Shown here: piece after piece, positions 29,115 to 45,066 of the stretch
Numbering within the stretch: the stretch's first letter is position 1
How the letters are laid out: each line of letters starts with the position of its first letter
DNA from: an uncultured Oscillospiraceae bacterium
GTDB lineage: Bacteria; Bacillota; Clostridia; Oscillospirales; Oscillospiraceae
Assembly: GCA_947626905.1 (NCBI GenBank)
Contig: CANQUE010000013.1
Coordinates: 1 to 45,489, forward strand
Direction of reading: 5' to 3'
DNA length: 45,489 nt
Position numbers and translations under genes: made by a program
Notes under the pieces: generated by a model
Seen by the model: only the letters and a program-made list of their open reading frames with translations
What the model was told of the DNA's origin: nothing
Databases searched by the model: none

Positions 29115-30428
29115 TTAATCGTCGAACACGGTCTGGCCGTCTACCTCTGTCTCCAGAGCGGTCAGAGCCTTCTCCACCAGCTTCCGGCGGAGAGCCTTTT
29201 CGTCCTTGGGCTCCAGAGCCGGGTTGCCCAGGGGATGAGGGATCGCGATGGCCGGCACGATACGGTTCGCGCCAACCGTCATAGAGATCGGGGTGACTGT
29301 GCACACGTGAACCACAGGCAGGCCAGCCCGCTCCACTTCTTTCACCATCGTTGCGCCGCAACGAGTACAAGTCCCTCAAGTGGATGTTAGGATGACGGCA
29401 TCTACACCGTCAGCCTTCAGCTTCTGGGCGAATTCCGCCGCGAATTTCTTCGCGGAGGCCACGGCCGTGCCGTTGCCGACGGTGGCGTAATACAGGTGAT
29501 GGAGGGAGCCGATGCGGCCTTCCTTCTCCAGATCACGCATCACGTCCACCGGGAGCACACGGTCGGCGTCCGCGTTGGCATAGACCGGGTCGTAGCCGCC
29601 GTGGGCGGTCTCATAGGTGTCCGCAGTCAGGTCCATGACGCCGGCGATGTCATACTCGCCGTAGTGGGAGGCGCTGGAGCTCTCGATGTGGTCGGGGTTG
29701 CCCTTGGGCACGATGCCGCCGGAGGTGACCAGCGCGATCTTGGCGTGCGCCATGTCCTTCACGGCCGGGTTGGGAGCCACGCGGTCGAACACCGGCATGG
29801 GGAACTCGGTCTCGAAGGGCTTGCCGGCCAGCTTCTTGATGAGCATCTTCACCGCACGGGCGGAGCCGCGCTCCTTCTCGAAGAAGTTGACACGCACGCC
29901 GTTGGGCAGATAGCCCTCCTCCGCGGAGGCGCCGATCTTCTCGCCCTTGCCCAGCTTCAGAGCCAGGGGGGCCAGCTTGCTGACGGCGTCCCGCATGCCG
30001 GCGGCGCTGTTCTTGGTGGAGATGATATAGACCTTGTTCTTGAACATATCCGCGCCGGGGTTCTCCACGTACATACCGGTCACGGAGGGGATGCCCAGCT
30101 GCTCCTGGACGGCCGCGGCGATGGTGCCGCAGGCCACGCCGTAACGGCCCGCGTTGAAGGCGGGGCCCGCCACGAACACGTCAGGCTTCTGGCTCTTGAC
30201 CATCTCCAGGATATCGGCGGTGGCCTTGTCCAGATTCTCGTTGAAGTAGGAGTCGCCGCAGACGACGGTGGCTACGATCTCGGCCTCGTCACCGAATTTC
30301 TGCATCAGGGCCATGCCCGGGCCCACTACTTCACCGACGCGCAGTTCAGCAGGGTAATCAGCCTTTTCCTCGCCGCCGATCTGGGCGAAGAACTGGTTGA
30401 TATAGTGAACTACTCTCAGTTTTGCCAT
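29115..30428 (-). CDS. grdB: Glycine/sarcosine/betaine reductase component B, selenoprotein subunit
   Basis: Component B binds the amino-acid substrate and passes its carboxymethyl group to selenoprotein A, ending in acetyl phosphate made by component C. The gene reads through an in-frame TGA (29376-29378) encoding selenocysteine at residue 351: the product is ILTST-Sec-GTCTRCGATMVKE, giving the 437-residue length of the family. A hairpin fit for a bacterial SECIS follows the codon. Treating TGA as stop would split the gene into 350 residues and a meaningless 77-residue piece. The ATG at 30428 has GGAGGAAAG upstream. It lies 21 bp after grdE. Glycine (GrdB), sarcosine (GrdF) and betaine (GrdH) forms are hard to separate by eye. 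Confidence 0.93.
29349..29378 (-). promoter_or_regulatory. UGA selenocysteine codon and SECIS-like hairpin of grdB
   Basis: On the coding strand the UGA (29378-29376) is followed 12 nt later by CGTTGC-GGC-GCAACG (29363-29349), a perfect 6-bp stem with a GGC apical loop. Bacterial SECIS elements are short hairpins at this distance with G in the loop, recognised by SelB. Confidence 0.75.
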
Positions 30429-34770: not shown

Positions 34771-34868
34771 GGAGGCGGATAGGTAACTGGTGTGCCTCCT
34801 GGTCTTCAAAACCAGTGTAGGGCGTGACGAGCGTCCTGGGTGGGTTCGATTCCCACACGTCTTCGCCA
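34771..34868 (+). tRNA. selC: tRNA-Sec (anticodon TCA)
   Basis: This 98-nt tRNA decodes UGA with selenocysteine after SelA/SelB action. The anticodon stem CTGGT/ACCAG carries the loop CTTCAAA (anticodon TCA). A long variable arm (AGGGCG/GCGTCCT), the T arm GTGGG-TTCGATT-CCCAC, discriminator G and encoded CCA are clear. The acceptor pairs GGAGGCG with CGTCTTC using two G-T pairs, and the eighth pair of the 8-bp stem is G-A. It sits 3.9 kb from the UGA-containing grdB. Confidence 0.95.
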
Positions 34869-38581: not shown

Positions 38582-40948
38582 TCACGCGCCGAAGACTTTT
38601 CGCGCCACCTCCACGGATTGCCGGGCGTCCTTGGAATAATAATCCGCGCCCATCTGACGGGCGTATTCCGACGTGACCACCGCGCCGCCCACCACCACCG
38701 CAGGAGGCTCCGGCAGAGCATGGAGAAGGCGGATGGTCTGCTCCATGGCCGGGAGAGTGGTGGTCATGAGGGCGGACAGCCCCACCAGCCGGATGTGCTC
38801 TCGCCGCACCGTGTCGGCGATGACCTGGGGCGGCACATCCCGGCCCAGATCGATGGTCTCGTAGCCGTAATTCTCCAGCACGGTCTTGACGATGTTCTTG
38901 CCGATGTCGTGGATGTCCCCCTGGACCGTGGCCAGCACCAGCCGCCCCCGCTTCACGCTCTCGCCGCCCGTTTGGGCGATGGCGGTCTTGATGACCTCGA
39001 ACACGGCCTGGGCCGCGCCGGCGGCGCTCAAAAGCTGGGGCAGGAACGCCGTGCCCCGCTCGTAGTCCTCGCCGATCTTATCCAGGGCCGGGATGAGCCG
39101 CTCCTCCACCAGCGCGAGAGGGGCCTGGCCCGCTTCCAGGGCCGCTGCGGCCAGCCGGGCCGCGTCGGCCTTCAGCCCCCGGACGACGGCGTCCTCCAGG
39201 GTGAGGGAGTCAGTAGCGGCCGCCGTCGCGGCGGTCTGCGCGGGCGCGTCCGCGAACCGGGCGATGTAGGCCCGGCTATCCCGATCCTCCCCGGACAGCA
39301 CCCGGAAAGCCGCCACCGCGTCCATCATCTCCCGCTGGTTGGGGTCCAGGATGGGCAGGGTCAGCCCCGCGCCCAATGCCTGGACGAGGAAGGTCTGGGT
39401 GACCAGCCGCCGGTCGGGCAGGCCGAAGGAGATGTTGGATACCCCCAGCACCACCTGCAGGCCCAGCTCTTCCCGCACCGTCCGCACGGCCCGGAGGGTC
39501 TCAGCGGCCTGCTCCTGCTGGGCGGAAACCGTCAGCGTCAGACAGTCGATCCATATATCCTCCCGGGGGATACCGTAAGAGAGCGCCGCGTCCAAAATGC
39601 GCTTGGCGATGGCCACCCGCTCCTGAGCCGTCCGGGGGACGCCGCCCTTGTCCAGGGTCAGGCCCACCACGGCGGCGCCGTATTTCTTCACGAGGGGCAA
39701 TATGCGGGCCAGCACCGCCGGATCGCCGTTCACGGAGTTGACCGCCGCCTTGCCGTTATAGACCCGCAGGCCGGCCTCCAGCGCGGCGGGGTCGGAGGAG
39801 TCCAGCTGCAGGGGCAGGGATACGGCGCTTTGCAGCTTTTTCACCACCTGGGGCAGAAGCGATGCCTCGTCCACGCCGGGATAGCCCACGTTCACATCCA
39901 GAATGTCCGCCCCCGCGTCCTCCTGTTGCACCGCCACGTCCAGGATATAGTCCAGATCGTGCTCCAAGAGCGCCTGCTGGAACCGCTTTTTCCCGGTGGG
40001 GTTGATCCGCTCGCCGATGACGCGCACCCCGTCCAGGCGGCAGGGAGTCGTGGGAGTACAGACGAAGCCTACCGCGTCGTAATGCCGGGCGGCGGGGCGC
40101 TTGCCCGCCAGGGCTTTGCGCAGCGCCTCGATATACGCCGGGGAGGTGCCGCAGCAGCCGCCGAAGATGGTCACCCCCGCGTCCAGCGAGGGCGCCAGCG
40201 CCGCCGCGAAGGCCTCCGGACCCATGTCGTAAAGCCCCGTGGCCGGGTCGGGCAGGCCCGCGTTGGGCTTGGCGATCACAGGCAGGCGGGTGTTCTCGCA
40301 AAGCTCCTTCAGAAGCGGGGCCAGAAGGTCCGGCCCCAGGGAGCAGTTCAGACCGATGGCGTCCGCGCCCAGGCCCTCCAGCGTCCGGGCCATGGAGGCC
40401 ACCGTGCAGCCGGTGAAAGTCCGGCCGCTCTCCTCAAAGGACATGGTGACGAATACCGGCAGGTCCGTGTTCTCCTTCACCGCCAACAGCGCCGCCTTTG
40501 CCTCATAGAGGTCGGTCATGGTTTCAATGACGGCCAGATCCGCCCCCGCGGCGGCGCCCGCCAGGGCGATCTGGCGGAAATACTCGTATGCCTTTTCGAA
40601 GCTGAGCGTGCCCATGGGCTCCAGAAGCTCCCCCAGAGGGCCGATGTCCAGGGCCACGGCCGCGGACCTCCCGGCCGCTTCTTTGGCCACGGCCACCGCC
40701 GCCGGGACCACCTCTTCCACTGTGTAGCCGGTGCGGGCCAGCTTGGGCGCACTGGCGCCGAAGGTGTTGGCGTAGATGATCTGGCTGCCGGCGGCCACGT
40801 ATTCCCGGTGGACGCCGAGCAGCAGCGCCGGGTCGGTCAGGGCTAACAGCTCCGGCTTGCCCCCGGGGGGCAGGCCCTTTTGCTGCAAAACGGTGCCCAT
40901 GGCCCCGTCCAGCAGCACGATATCCTTCTTCCAGCGTTCAGTCAGCAC
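38582..40948 (-). CDS. metH: Cobalamin-dependent methionine synthase lacking the reactivation domain
   Basis: MetH moves the methyl of 5-methyl-THF to homocysteine through cobalamin. The 788-residue protein has a homocysteine domain with zinc cysteines in GLNCS and GGCCGTSP (about 1-285), a pterin domain (about 305-560, VIGERINPTGKK, SVNGDP), and a cobalamin cap and binding domain with the axial-His motif DIHDIGKN (about 580-788). The usual ~330-residue C-terminal AdoMet domain is absent and appears as the separate upstream gene. The start is a GTG at 40948 with AAGGAGG 8 nt upstream (40963-40957); a longer ATG reading would overlap the upstream gene by 65 bp. The true overlap is 11 bp. Confidence 0.95.
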   Translation of the reverse strand: MLTERWKKDIVLLDGAMGTVLQQKGLPPGGKPELLALTDPALLLGVHREYVAAGSQIIYANTFGASAPKLARTGYTVEEVVPAAVAVAKEAAGRSAAVALDIGPLGELLEPMGTLSFEKAYEYFRQIALAGAAAGADLAVIETMTDLYEAKAALLAVKENTDLPVFVTMSFEESGRTFTGCTVASMARTLEGLGADAIGLNCSLGPDLLAPLLKELCENTRLPVIAKPNAGLPDPATGLYDMGPEAFAAALAPSLDAGVTIFGGCCGTSPAYIEALRKALAGKRPAARHYDAVGFVCTPTTPCRLDGVRVIGERINPTGKKRFQQALLEHDLDYILDVAVQQEDAGADILDVNVGYPGVDEASLLPQVVKKLQSAVSLPLQLDSSDPAALEAGLRVYNGKAAVNSVNGDPAVLARILPLVKKYGAAVVGLTLDKGGVPRTAQERVAIAKRILDAALSYGIPREDIWIDCLTLTVSAQQEQAAETLRAVRTVREELGLQVVLGVSNISFGLPDRRLVTQTFLVQALGAGLTLPILDPNQREMMDAVAAFRVLSGEDRDSRAYIARFADAPAQTAATAAATDSLTLEDAVVRGLKADAARLAAAALEAGQAPLALVEERLIPALDKIGEDYERGTAFLPQLLSAAGAAQAVFEVIKTAIAQTGGESVKRGRLVLATVQGDIHDIGKNIVKTVLENYGYETIDLGRDVPPQVIADTVRREHIRLVGLSALMTTTLPAMEQTIRLLHALPEPPAVVVGGAVVTSEYARQMGADYYSKDARQSVEVARKVFGA

Positions 40949-41612
40949 AGCTTTTTCCTCCTTCGCGAAGGGTACAGCTCCCGGCCAGGGAGCAGTATGC
41001 ACAGCCCCTTATGCGGGCCGGCTGGGGCCCGTCCGCCAGACCGATCACGGCGGTGACGGATTTGGATGGGTTCATGAGAAGGCTCCCCGTGACCTGGACG
41101 CCCAGCCGCCGCCCGGCGTCCAGGGCCGTGCAGATGGCGTCCTGTGTCTCCAACGGCAGGTCCCCGTAGCCGGGGCTGAAGCGGTCGGTGAGATACAGTC
41201 CGGGATACCGGCTTGCGATCTGCCGCTCCGCCGCATCGCAGCCTGCCTCCACCAGGGCGCTGCCGCAGGCGTCCAATATCACCGCCCGGGCCATGTCCCG
41301 GGCCTGGACCGAGCGGAGCATGGCTTCAAAGCCGGCTCCCAGGGTACAGGCCAGAAGCGCCGCCTGGCCGCACCGGGCCAGCATCCGCCCGGCCAGGCTG
41401 CCCGGCAGGGTGACGCCGCTGCCCTGTAAGACGACGCCTTCCGGTCCCCGCTCCAGGGGGAACAGGCGGTAGACATACCGGGGCCGGACGGCGCGGAGAA
41501 GCCCGTCCGCCTCGTCTTGCACGGCCCGGGCCATCGCCCCCTCCGGGTCCTCTTTCACGCCCAGATAGCGCAGCACCTCGCCAATATCCGGTTTTATGCC
41601 GTTTTCGCCCAT
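40938..41612 (-). CDS. Methionine synthase reactivation-domain protein (stand-alone)
   Basis: This 224-residue homologue of the AdoMet-binding activation domain of MetH is expected to remethylate oxidised cob(II)alamin on the short MetH using AdoMet and an electron donor. RFSPGYGDLPLETQ (about 144-157) and the SKSVTAVIGLADG segment (about 188-200) are the AdoMet-site motifs of the family. A Cys-rich tail, CAYCSLAGSCTLREGGKSC, may bind metal. It sits directly upstream of metH, overlapping it by 11 bp, so both are translationally coupled and probably made in equal amounts. Confidence 0.88.
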   Translation of the reverse strand: MGENGIKPDIGEVLRYLGVKEDPEGAMARAVQDEADGLLRAVRPRYVYRLFPLERGPEGVVLQGSGVTLPGSLAGRMLARCGQAALLACTLGAGFEAMLRSVQARDMARAVILDACGSALVEAGCDAAERQIASRYPGLYLTDRFSPGYGDLPLETQDAICTALDAGRRLGVQVTGSLLMNPSKSVTAVIGLADGPQPARIRGCAYCSLAGSCTLREGGKSCAD

Positions 41613-41616
41613 ATCG

Positions 41617-42063
41617 TCAGTCCGGGCGGTCCGCGTCAGACACCATCAGGTCGGCCAGGTCAGACACCATCAGGTCGGCCAGGGTAGTATGATCCAGATA
41701 GTCCATGATGACCTTGTTCAGTCCCTGCCAAAGGGGGAGCGTGCGGCATTGGGGCGCACGGCGGCACGGCTTTGCGCCTCTGGCAAGGCAGGTGACAGGC
41801 GCCAGTTCCTCCTCCGTCAGCCAGAGGATGTCGCTCACCTTGTATTCATCCGGGGCCTTCGCCAGGCGATAGCCGCCGCCCTTGCCCCGCAGCCCGTCCA
41901 GCATGCCGTTTTTCACCAGGATCTTTAGAATGCCTTCCACATATTTCTCCGATATCTCCTGACGGCGGGCCACATCCTTGAGCGGGATATAGCCGTCGCC
42001 CTGGTTCTCGGCCAGGTCGATCATCACCCGCAGCGCGTACCGGCCCCGTGTTGAGATCAGCAT
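41617..42063 (-). CDS. Rrf2-family transcriptional regulator
   Basis: This 148-residue regulator has an N-terminal winged helix (MLISTRGRYALRVM, EISEKYVEGILK as recognition helix, GLRGKGGGYRLA as wing). Three cysteines (92, 100, 106) are spaced somewhat like the iron-sulfur ligands of IscR. CymR, a relative in Firmicutes, controls cysteine metabolism, so control of the neighbouring sulfur amino-acid genes is plausible. The start at 42063 has GGAGG 8 nt upstream; an ATG at 42078 is weaker. The C-terminus carries an exact 8-residue tandem repeat (LADLMVSD). It is the first gene of the Rrf2-activase-metH unit, with a 4-bp gap. Confidence 0.9.
   Translation of the reverse strand: MLISTRGRYALRVMIDLAENQGDGYIPLKDVARRQEISEKYVEGILKILVKNGMLDGLRGKGGGYRLAKAPDEYKVSDILWLTEEELAPVTCLARGAKPCRRAPQCRTLPLWQGLNKVIMDYLDHTTLADLMVSDLADLMVSDADRPD
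41635..41682. repeat. Perfect tandem duplication of 24 bp in the Rrf2 gene
   Basis: 41635-41658 and 41659-41682 are identical and in frame, repeating LADLMVSD near the C-terminus. Confidence 0.95.
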
Positions 42064-42090
42064 CGAAAACGCCTCCATTCCAATTACCCT

Positions 42091-43435: not shown

Positions 43436-43486
43436 TAATCAAACTACTAGGTTAATATCAAATTCGACGAAATGCAAAAATCGGCT

Positions 43487-43514
43487 TGACATGACAGGGT
43501 GCCGATGCTATAAT
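43487..43514 (+). promoter_or_regulatory. metY leader promoter
   Basis: TTGACA (43487-43492) and TATAAT (43509-43514), spacer 16 bp. Transcription would begin inside the dyad at 43522-43542. Confidence 0.85.
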
Positions 43515-43521
43515 CCCACCA

Positions 43522-43542
43522 AACCGATAGATTTAATTGGTT
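43522..43542. promoter_or_regulatory. Putative methionine operator, site 2 (AACC-N13-GGTT)
   Basis: AACCGAT, seven bases, then ATTGGTT. The site lies 7 bp after the -10 box and shares length, ends and 14 of 21 bases with the metF site at 36610-36630. Confidence 0.5.
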
Positions 43543-43570
43543 TATTTGGACCGGAAAGGAGGCGTACCGG

Positions 43571-43693
43571 ATGAAGGACCTGTTCCTTGCTCTTTTGCGA
43601 AGCAACTTTCGATGTGGACGAATGCTGAACTCCCGGGCTGAGAGAGCGGCCGGGCGTCCTGCTGCGTCCGTCGGGTGCCGTTGTATGTGTTGA
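43571..43693 (+). CDS. metY leader peptide ending Cys-Arg-Cys-Met-Cys
   Basis: This 40-codon ORF, MKDLFLALLR to GCRCMC-stop, is preceded by the full ribosome site AAAGGAGG at 43555-43562. The last five codons are TGC CGT TGT ATG TGT before TGA, three Cys and one Met. An intrinsic terminator follows 25 nt after the stop and 33 bp before metY. A seven-base segment in the ORF, CTCCCGG (43630-43636), is complementary to the left arm of that terminator (CCGGGAG, 43719-43725) and could act as antiterminator. The layout is that of an amino-acid attenuation leader sensing cysteine and methionine supply. The peptide itself matches nothing I know. Confidence 0.6.
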   Translation: MKDLFLALLRSNFRCGRMLNSRAERAAGRPAASVGCRCMC

Positions 43694-43717
43694 GGCATAC
43701 CCATGACCGCTTTTCAG

Positions 43718-43750
43718 TCCGGGAGCTTTTGGAAGAGCCCCGGATTTTTT
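43718..43750 (+). terminator. Leader terminator (attenuator) before metY
   Basis: TCCGGG-A-GCTT (43718-43728) pairs with GAGCCCCGGA (43735-43744) with a bulged A, followed by TTTTTT. TTTTCAG (43711-43717) and CTGAAAA (43752-43758) can close a larger stem around it. No gene ends just before it except the leader ORF. Confidence 0.8.
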
Positions 43751-43782
43751 GCTGAAAATTTTGGATCGAAAGAGGTTGCATT

Positions 43783-45066
43783 ATGAGCAATTATAAGTTT
43801 GAAACGCTTCAGCTCCATGTGGGCCAGGAGCAGGCGGACCCCGCCACCGACGCCCGGGCCGTACCCATCTACGCCACCACCAGCTATGTGTTCCACAACT
43901 CCGCCCATGCCGCCGCGCGTTTTGGCCTGGCGGACGCGGGCAATATCTACGGCCGGCTGACCAACTCCACCCAGGACGTGCTGGAAAAGCGCATCGCGGC
44001 CCTGGAGGGGGGCGTGGGCGCTCTGGCCCTGGCCTCCGGCGCGGCGGCTATCACCTATACCATCCAGGCCCTGGCCACCCAGGGGGAGCATATCGTGGCC
44101 CAGAAGACCATCTACGGCGGAAGCTATAACCTGCTGGCCCATACCCTGCCCCAGTACGGCATCACCACCACCTTCGTGGACGCCCACGATCTGGCCGAAG
44201 TGGAGGCCGCCATCCAACCCAACACCAAGGCCCTCTACATCGAAACCCTGGGCAATCCCAACTCCGACATCCCCGACATCGACGCCATCGCGGCCATCGC
44301 CCATAAGCACGGCCTGCCTCTCGTCATCGACAACACCTTCGGCACCCCCTATCTCATCCGGCCCATCGAGCACGGCGCGGACATCGTGGTCCACTCGGCC
44401 ACCAAGTTCATCGGCGGCCACGGCACCACCCTGGGAGGCATCATCGTGGACGGCGGCACCTTTGATTGGGCCGCCAGCGGCCGGTACCCCGCTATCAGCG
44501 AGCCCAACCCCAGCTACCACGGCGTGCGCTTTACCGAGGCCGCCGGCCCTGCCGCCTTCGTTACCTACGTCCGGGCCATCCTCCTGCGGGACACCGGCGC
44601 CACCATCTCCCCCTTCGCGGCGTTCCTGCTGCTCCAGGGCGTGGAGACCCTCTCCCTGCGGCTGGACCGGCATGCAGAGAACACGAAAAAGGTGGTGGAG
44701 TACCTGGCCCATCATCCCCAGGTGGAGCATGTGAATCATCCCTCTCTGCCGGACCATCCCCAGCACGCCCTCTATGAGAAGTACTTCCCCAATGGCGGCG
44801 CGTCCATCTTCACCTTTGAGATCAAGGGCGGCGTGGCCGAGGCCCACAAGTTCATCGACAATCTGGAGATCTTCTCCCTGCTGGCCAATGTGGCGGACGT
44901 GAAGAGCCTGGTCATCCACCCGGCCACCACCACCCACTCCCAGCTCACCGAGGAGGAACTGCTGGATCAGGGCATCAAGCCCAACACCATCCGCCTGTCC
45001 ATTGGCACCGAGCATATCGACGACATCATCGCCGACCTGGAAAAGGGCTTTGCCGCCGTCCGATGA
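43783..45066 (+). CDS. metY: O-acetylhomoserine aminocarboxypropyltransferase (sulfhydrylase)
   Basis: This 427-residue PLP enzyme of the Cys/Met metabolism family makes homocysteine from O-acetylhomoserine and sulfide. The PLP lysine is in HSATKFIGGHG (about residue 207). YGRLTNST, ASGAAAITY and the insertion SEPNPSYHGVRFTEAAG mark the MetY branch rather than cystathionine gamma-synthase. The start at 43783 has GAGG nearby. It fits the acetyl-type MetA at 37549 and gives direct sulfhydrylation. Expression appears controlled by the operator and leader attenuator upstream, and it is followed by an amino-acid ABC transporter gene. Confidence 0.95.
   Translation: MSNYKFETLQLHVGQEQADPATDARAVPIYATTSYVFHNSAHAAARFGLADAGNIYGRLTNSTQDVLEKRIAALEGGVGALALASGAAAITYTIQALATQGEHIVAQKTIYGGSYNLLAHTLPQYGITTTFVDAHDLAEVEAAIQPNTKALYIETLGNPNSDIPDIDAIAAIAHKHGLPLVIDNTFGTPYLIRPIEHGADIVVHSATKFIGGHGTTLGGIIVDGGTFDWAASGRYPAISEPNPSYHGVRFTEAAGPAAFVTYVRAILLRDTGATISPFAAFLLLQGVETLSLRLDRHAENTKKVVEYLAHHPQVEHVNHPSLPDHPQHALYEKYFPNGGASIFTFEIKGGVAEAHKFIDNLEIFSLLANVADVKSLVIHPATTTHSQLTEEELLDQGIKPNTIRLSIGTEHIDDIIADLEKGFAAVR

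Follow-up and report, generated by a model that had tools for sequence, protein, structure and literature searches.

A conserved leader ORF with an invariant CGA-AUG codon pair precedes metY in Clostridia and may control methionine genes as a ribosome-mediated switch

The window analysed here is the whole stretch of 45,489 nucleotides from an uncultured Oscillospiraceae bacterium (contig CANQUE010000013.1 of assembly GCA_947626905.1). Near its end lies metY (43783-45066, +), encoding an O-acetylhomoserine sulfhydrylase (TIGR01326, 631 bits, over the cut-off), preceded by a leader whose main parts had been proposed in an initial annotation. The strong promoter claimed there is a sigma-70-type TTGACA-17-TATAAT at 43486-43514 (+), with 12/12 consensus bases and a TG ahead of the -10 element. 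Near the expected transcription start follows an imperfect inverted repeat, AAACCGAT...ATTGGTTT (43521-43543, +; loose pattern, no control), and then the Shine-Dalgarno sequence AAAGGAGG (43555-43562, +), 8 nt before the ATG at 43571 of the 40-codon leader ORF (43571-43693, +). This ORF, present in the ORF list and with homologues in relatives, does end in Cys-Arg-Cys-Met-Cys, as had been described. Comparison of leaders marks its first 18 codons, MKDLFLALLRSNFRCGRM (43571-43624, +), as the conserved core, which contains the TGT codon of Cys15 (43613-43615, +), an invariant CGA for Arg17 (43619-43621, +) and the ATG of Met18 (43622-43624, +), our proposed sensor codon on the basis of codon counts and fold register.

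The terminator annotated before metY was likewise recovered, as a hairpin with a T-run at 43716-43750 (+; -17.8 kcal/mol) that a simple consensus scan overlooked and a hairpin detector picked up. The complementarity reported between 43630-43636 and 43719-43725 is exact, and the pairing extends to approximately 43630-43651 with 43706-43725. By folding and a swap test, segment 1 (43630-43651, +), within the ORF, is the 5' arm of an antiterminator, and segment 3 (43706-43725, +), which overlaps the left arm of the terminator, its 3' arm; a nested hairpin, H2, of the GGGYG...CRCCC type is placed at 43652-43669 (+), also within the ORF, by folding of relatives. The free window leader, at minimum energy, folds with segments 1 and 3 paired, and the terminator forms once the upstream part of the leader is removed. 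The whole leader folds only moderately more stably than shuffled sequences (z -1.86). No T-box or SAM riboswitch core had been seen in the leader, and Rfam scans likewise found neither, with no family at gathering score and one permissive match at chance level (E 6.3).

A gene for an Rrf2-family regulator lies near metY (41617-42078, -; Pfam Rrf2, E 2.5e-35) and, taken together with the inverted repeat at 43521-43543, suggests a CymR-like promoter control besides the leader. The repeat is a possible operator for a regulator that we infer to be of the Rrf2/CymR type; the palindrome found upstream of leaders at 87/197 loci was counted with a loose pattern and no control, and no firm conclusion follows from it. 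Since a methionine synthase-like ORF of 806 aa and an adjoining ORF of 224 aa (38582-41612, -; judged by eye from their translations) are found nearby, the region resembles a methionine gene cluster.

The leader element extends beyond Oscillospiraceae and beyond metY. A search with the 40-aa window peptide gave matches in 28/200 family genomes at E <= 0.05, about half of the resulting loci lacking the core motif and representing chance matches. With a profile of the core, matches at E <= 0.1, weak ones counted, appeared in 98/300 genomes of the family and in 58/391 of the class. Among the loci inspected from the class search, the core ORF was confirmed in 28 genomes, which carry 15 different family labels within the class of the window, a count covering class-search matches with a retrieved locus. 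A shorter model run at E <= 0.02 on 398 phylum-wide genomes found a strong match in the window's own genome only, along with four weaker ones (E 0.003-0.02). Scanning named genomes with a DNA pattern returned at least 120 loci; the matches listed are nearly all from Clostridia or Bacillota and include Butyricicoccus, Agathobaculum, Ruminococcus, Christensenella, Emergencia, Gemmiger and named Lachnospiraceae. Single matches in Methanimicrococcus and Mariniphaga lack the core, and L087 (E 0.0013), which has AGG-ATG and no ORF of the leader kind, was taken as chance. Five genomes of the window's own genus (G095, G163, G216, G257, G294) gave no core match at E <= 0.1. The 198 loci used below combine those from the protein searches with L130-L249, obtained with a DNA pattern containing CGAATG, and the R.N..R.GR conservation in this set owes partly to the search pattern.

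The core reads MxxxFxxLLRxN[FWY]R[FCNY]GRM. If the nearest upstream Met is taken as the start, Met18 falls at codon 18 in 146/170 leaders; as starts were assigned in precisely this way, a count of leaders without internal Met was left unused. A loose RBS-like motif, scored without control, precedes 69/84 non-redundant leaders having an ATG. Between the window and its relative L208, the six bases that differ within codons 4-19 all leave the amino acid unchanged, and amino acid changes are found at codons 2, 3 and 20 and at several positions past 29, which argues that the leader is selected as a peptide. So short a peptide is hard for Pfam and NCBIfam models, and no match to either was obtained. 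Recurrence of both the ORF core and the pairing in relatives indicates more than chance.

The tails past the core are unrelated among leaders and often missing. The initial annotation had placed the sensor in the terminal Cys-Arg-Cys-Met-Cys codons and had proposed an alignment of relatives; in that comparison the ORF core and the pairing partners recur, whereas the terminal Cys/Met codons are not kept. Two close relatives have endings resembling that of the window (GCLCMC in L208, GCRCMR in L210), L002 ends in CRLPF and L008 has no such codons, so sensing by these codons was dropped as the mechanism of the family, for which they appear to be dispensable as judged from the aligned leaders. Still, folds that permit pairing across the ribosome predict readthrough in the window leader for a ribosome paused close to the terminal codons, and stalling there may therefore operate in this one leader. 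The remainder of the earlier proposal, a leader ORF coupled to an antiterminator/terminator switch, is well supported by the results below, and its sulfur amino-acid signal fits the regulated genes.

The most constrained position is found at codon level. Arg17 is encoded by CGA in 97/97 leaders read from protein-search matches, in 94/94 and 89/89 after two ways of removing duplicates, and in all 88 distinct cores retrieved with a pattern open to any Arg codon; these counts exclude L130-L249, and the protein-search pattern was one without CGA. In the 153 metY ORFs of the leader loci, CGA accounts for 3.1% of 2003 Arg codons. Within the protein-search leaders all six Arg codons are used at Arg10 and Arg14, both codons at Asn12 and all four at Gly16, and the codon after Met18 varies (TGA, TGY, CTG, CCG). 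An invariant CGA amid a synonymously varying core indicates that codon 17 is additionally selected, as codon or as RNA. CGA belongs to the slowly translated codons in a Salmonella his leader assay, according to the parts of that report available to us (PMC4046918). A conserved peptide and an invariant hexamer could also be expected of a small protein acting in trans, or of a regulator-bound RNA motif, CGAAUG, in place of control by ribosome position. We consider this extremely improbable, given that the tails are unrelated and often absent, that the other conserved codons vary synonymously, and that the RNA elements begin directly past the hexamer.

A terminator was detected in 29/198 leaders and none in 150, the remaining 19 stretches being too short to judge; the detector missed some terminators of the window type (L008, L041), and three of its matches, L007 (a far hairpin), L095 and L213, fall outside that type. 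In window-type leaders the antiterminator arm begins 8 nt past the A of AUG18. When only the RNA ahead of the ribosome edge was folded, the terminator flipped on at edges M+9..M+13 in 27/29 leaders, with a mean P(terminator) of 0.06-0.18 at M+0..M+8 and at least 0.95 at M+13..M+25. This set comprised the 33 window-type leaders minus L096, which has no terminator, and minus L135, L230 and L239; folded separately, these three terminator-bearing leaders showed no flip, so that 27/32 terminator-bearing leaders flip in this interval and 5/32 deviate. The duplex between segments 1 and 3 reached -35.5 with the leader's own partner vs -30.8 with swapped partners (sd 0.65), and outside the invariant CTCCCGG -17.3 vs -13.6; in neither comparison was any of 200 swaps as strong. 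The pairs at M+15 and M+17 covary, and the nested hairpin is predicted in most of 28 distinct window-type leaders. By these folds, the mutually exclusive antiterminator and terminator are kept among window-type relatives.

Which codon decides depends in these models on the footprint assumed, which shifts it by one. The helicase of the ribosome lies at about P+11, and with this edge the flip falls where the ribosome leaves the position with Met18 in its A site and moves onto the codons directly after; with an edge at P+15 it coincides with the CGA17 step, so CGA17 rather than Met18 would decide. The conserved codons adjoining the switch in window-type leaders are Cys15, CGA17 and AUG18. The P+15 register, in which CGA17 would occupy the A site at the flip, and the strict invariance of CGA would suit a sensor based on CGA decoding itself, with the abundance or modification of tRNA-Arg(ICG), for instance 2-thiocytidine-32, serving as a gauge of sulfur. 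We regard this as very improbable. 2-thiocytidine restricts the reading of CGA; abundant sulfur would accordingly delay the ribosome and induce metY, contrary to the direction needed, for which reason tRNA thiolation was set aside as the main model.

If pairing across the ribosome is allowed and the edge is put at P+11, the window leader remains antiterminated, at 0.05 in either case, whether the ribosome has Met18 in its P site or stands at the stop codon; in the same folds across all leaders, the terminator is favoured in 21/29 at Met18 and in 4/28 at the stop. With the edge at P+14 the window is fully flipped at Met18 (1.00), and the terminator is on in 16/16 window-type leaders computed. 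With no ribosome at all, 22/29 window-type leaders are antiterminated. The OFF state consequently needs a kinetic argument, since the window is antiterminated at Met18 and at the stop under cross-pairing at P+11; with many leaders antiterminated at the stop or ribosome-free, repression would have to rest on timing or on trailing ribosomes covering segment 1.

In leaders without a detected terminator, the pairing partner appears to be the ribosome-binding site of metY. For 89 non-redundant leaders that are not of the window type and have metY 20-140 nt downstream, the duplex of the leader with its own metY ribosome-binding site averaged -13.2 vs -10.8 when swapped (sd 0.24), and 0/200 swaps were as strong. 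An earlier run on 97 loci, with duplicates kept, agreed; it had included L008 and L041, whose terminators had been missed and which were removed for later runs. The effect on the Shine-Dalgarno sequence is modest in the free leader, with an unpaired fraction of 0.33 in real vs 0.41 in swapped constructs; masking to M+12 brings both to 0.57, a gain of 0.24 vs 0.16. On average the site opens mostly at edges M-15..M-12, before Met18, with a smaller rise past M+6. The fold results of each class predict that a ribosome held at codons 17-18 favours expression in both, and the direction of this predicted ON state suits genes for methionine synthesis or uptake.

We propose with moderate confidence, on the strength of the codon counts, the regulated genes and these folds, that the leader is a ribosome-mediated switch for methionine genes in which slow decoding of Met18 behind CGA17 turns the gene on. 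The leading ribosome would translate the 18-codon core and reach Met18 with the slow CGA codon of Arg17 in its P site. Under scarcity of charged Met-tRNA, possibly also of Cys-tRNA at an adjacent Cys codon, it would wait there, so that the segment beginning 8 nt past the A of AUG18 would stay mostly uncovered. Segment 1 of the window leader, thus freed, could pair with the left arm of the terminator, which would be blocked, and metY would be transcribed. When methionine is plentiful, the ribosome would advance over segment 1, the terminator would form and transcription would end before metY. In relatives lacking the terminator, the parked ribosome may instead protect the metY ribosome-binding site from pairing with the leader. 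Probably, then, a ribosome waiting near one Met codon decides whether metY is on. That there is only a single Met codon, where an amino-acid attenuator would be expected to have more, counts against this model, and the strong conservation of the peptide exceeds the need of a plain codon-starvation attenuator, which suggests an arrest function.

The main rival to starvation is a ligand-induced arrest of the TnaC or plant CGS1 kind, in which the nascent RxNFRxGRM would bind methionine, SAM or a related metabolite and, when this is plentiful, halt the ribosome while Met18 occupies the P site. The conserved C-terminal nascent residues characteristic of arrest peptides are found in the core: conservation covers the residues directly before Met18 but not the codon that follows, and the distance from the upstream Met is 18 codons in those same 146/170 leaders. 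With the P+14 edge, moreover, the terminator is favoured in 16/16 window-type leaders computed when Met18 occupies the P site. Arrest at Met18 would, however, repress the window type yet tend to expose the ribosome-binding site in leaders of the other class, with opposite signs for the same genes, and this conflict led us to set aside Met18 in the P site as the repressing state of all classes. As ligand arrest alone also leaves the invariant CGA unexplained, we judge it rather unlikely.

The regulated genes fit with sulfur amino acids as the signal. metY is found downstream in 153/198 loci (142/183 non-redundant). Ten of the 45 loci without metY have no downstream ORF at all in the stretch analysed. 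Proteins of 22/45 were scanned, and 14/22 have as best match MetQ/NlpA- or MetN-type parts of methionine transporters; none of these 14 reaches the NCBIfam curated cut-off, and the three submitted to a Pfam scan are all over the Lipoprotein_9 threshold. Other targets encode an amino-acid ABC permease (L023), an amino-acid binding protein (L005), an SsuA-like protein (L006), a TauC/SsuC-like permease (L235), a URO-D protein (L004) and, 532 nt distant, an FAD protein (L007); the downstream proteins of L010 and L115 gave no family match. In 61 family genomes, 68 metY genes score over the cut-off. Among the 24 top-scoring ones (> 605 bits) the leader precedes 16 of the 23 with upstream DNA, and among the 44 lower-scoring ones it was found at G046 only, as a partial match. 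No SAM riboswitch at gathering score was found in 58 other metY upstream regions; a T-box precedes metY in one of them, the sole case (L291, 239-464, genome G017; 95.2 bits vs gathering 93).

Cysteine codons are common at the positions adjoining GRM, so a joint response to methionine and cysteine is possible. Cys15 is present in 24/29 non-redundant window-type leaders, a set of 29 distinct from the one folded and obtained from the 33 by removing near-duplicates. The other 154 leaders include 50 that stop right at Met18 (TGA 47, TAA 3) and 104 with a tail, of which 97 have a Cys within 8 residues past Met18. With Cys15 in the A site, antitermination is predicted in 27/29 window-type leaders. 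These counts would all suit a leader that senses mainly cysteine, by stalling at Cys15 or in a Cys-rich tail when cysteine is scarce. We hold that reading to be distinctly improbable, considering that 48/183 non-redundant leaders end at Met18 and lack Cys15 while retaining CGA-AUG, and that MetQ/MetN-like transporters are frequent among the remaining targets. Under the Met18 starvation model, cysteine may add to the signal, Met18 being its constant part.

Methionine genes of Gram-positive bacteria are, in the textbook picture, controlled by SAM riboswitches and T-boxes, and the leader points to another methionine control in gut Clostridia, apparently undescribed: a literature search that included core peptide strings, with most subscription journals and preprints outside its scope, found no description of it. 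We tentatively propose, as possible but short of probable, a widespread clostridial sensor family in which a Met codon, hypersensitised by an invariant P-site CGA and a conserved nascent peptide, would sense the charging of Met-tRNA (and Cys-tRNA), with a terminator or masking of the ribosome-binding site as output, before metY genes without a SAM riboswitch. What sets it apart is a strictly fixed synonymous codon and the coupling of one leader core to two kinds of output, and the old idea that slow codons set the sensitivity of attenuation becomes directly testable at CGA17.

Several known systems share some of these features. The trp, his and leu leader-peptide attenuators consist of a short ORF with codons of the pathway amino acid and mutually exclusive antiterminator and terminator, with counterparts here in the ORF, the proposed sensor codon and the predicted structures. 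Our leader differs from them in having one putative sensor Met codon rather than several, a strongly conserved peptide with an invariant synonymous CGA ahead of the Met codon, and a second class, lacking a detected terminator, for which control of translation initiation is predicted. In how it would work, the leader resembles a ribosome-mediated attenuator, distinguished by the CGA-preceded Met, the conserved peptide and the two outputs. The erm-type translational attenuators likewise rely on a parked ribosome to expose the downstream ribosome-binding site, as proposed for our second class; their signal is an antibiotic, and we know of no sequence relation to the clostridial leader. The arrest peptides TnaC and SpeFL, and plant CGS1, have conserved residues just before the stall site; the leader shares this before its putative stall site, whereas an arrest output would carry opposite signs in its two classes. 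Mycobacterial polycysteine leader attenuators also place sulfur amino-acid codons in a leader ORF; the clostridial core differs in lacking a polycysteine run and occurs in other bacteria. His leaders have been described in bacilli, going by the accessible portion of PMC2965389. Met leader peptides have been proposed in Campylobacter jejuni, where, as far as the available parts of both reports state, MetL and CJsORF19 precede metBA and a D-methionine transporter gene, a likeness to our targets (PMC3847290, PMC11955535). MetL (20 aa) and CJsORF19 (MMYQMR) each have 3 Met codons, unlike the single putative sensor Met of the clostridial core; the same parts of these sources report MetL in C. jejuni, C. 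coli and C. doylei only and mention no CGA-AUG core for either peptide (PMC3847290, PMC11955535).

A few leaders depart from the core. L125 (G085:C32:1014-1064) keeps CGA, has lost Met18 and carries a Cys after CGA, and L026/L056 (G113:C23) keeps CGA with Met18 replaced by Ile; these leaders without Met18 are possibly products of natural decay or variants. All of these, together with L121 and L255 (F to S), are variants at or outside the search pattern. Elsewhere in the window, Rfam scans located a tRNA-Sec at 34771-34864 (+) and a SECIS_4 element at 29338-29375 (-), which point to selenocysteine machinery and probably a selenoprotein gene in the window.
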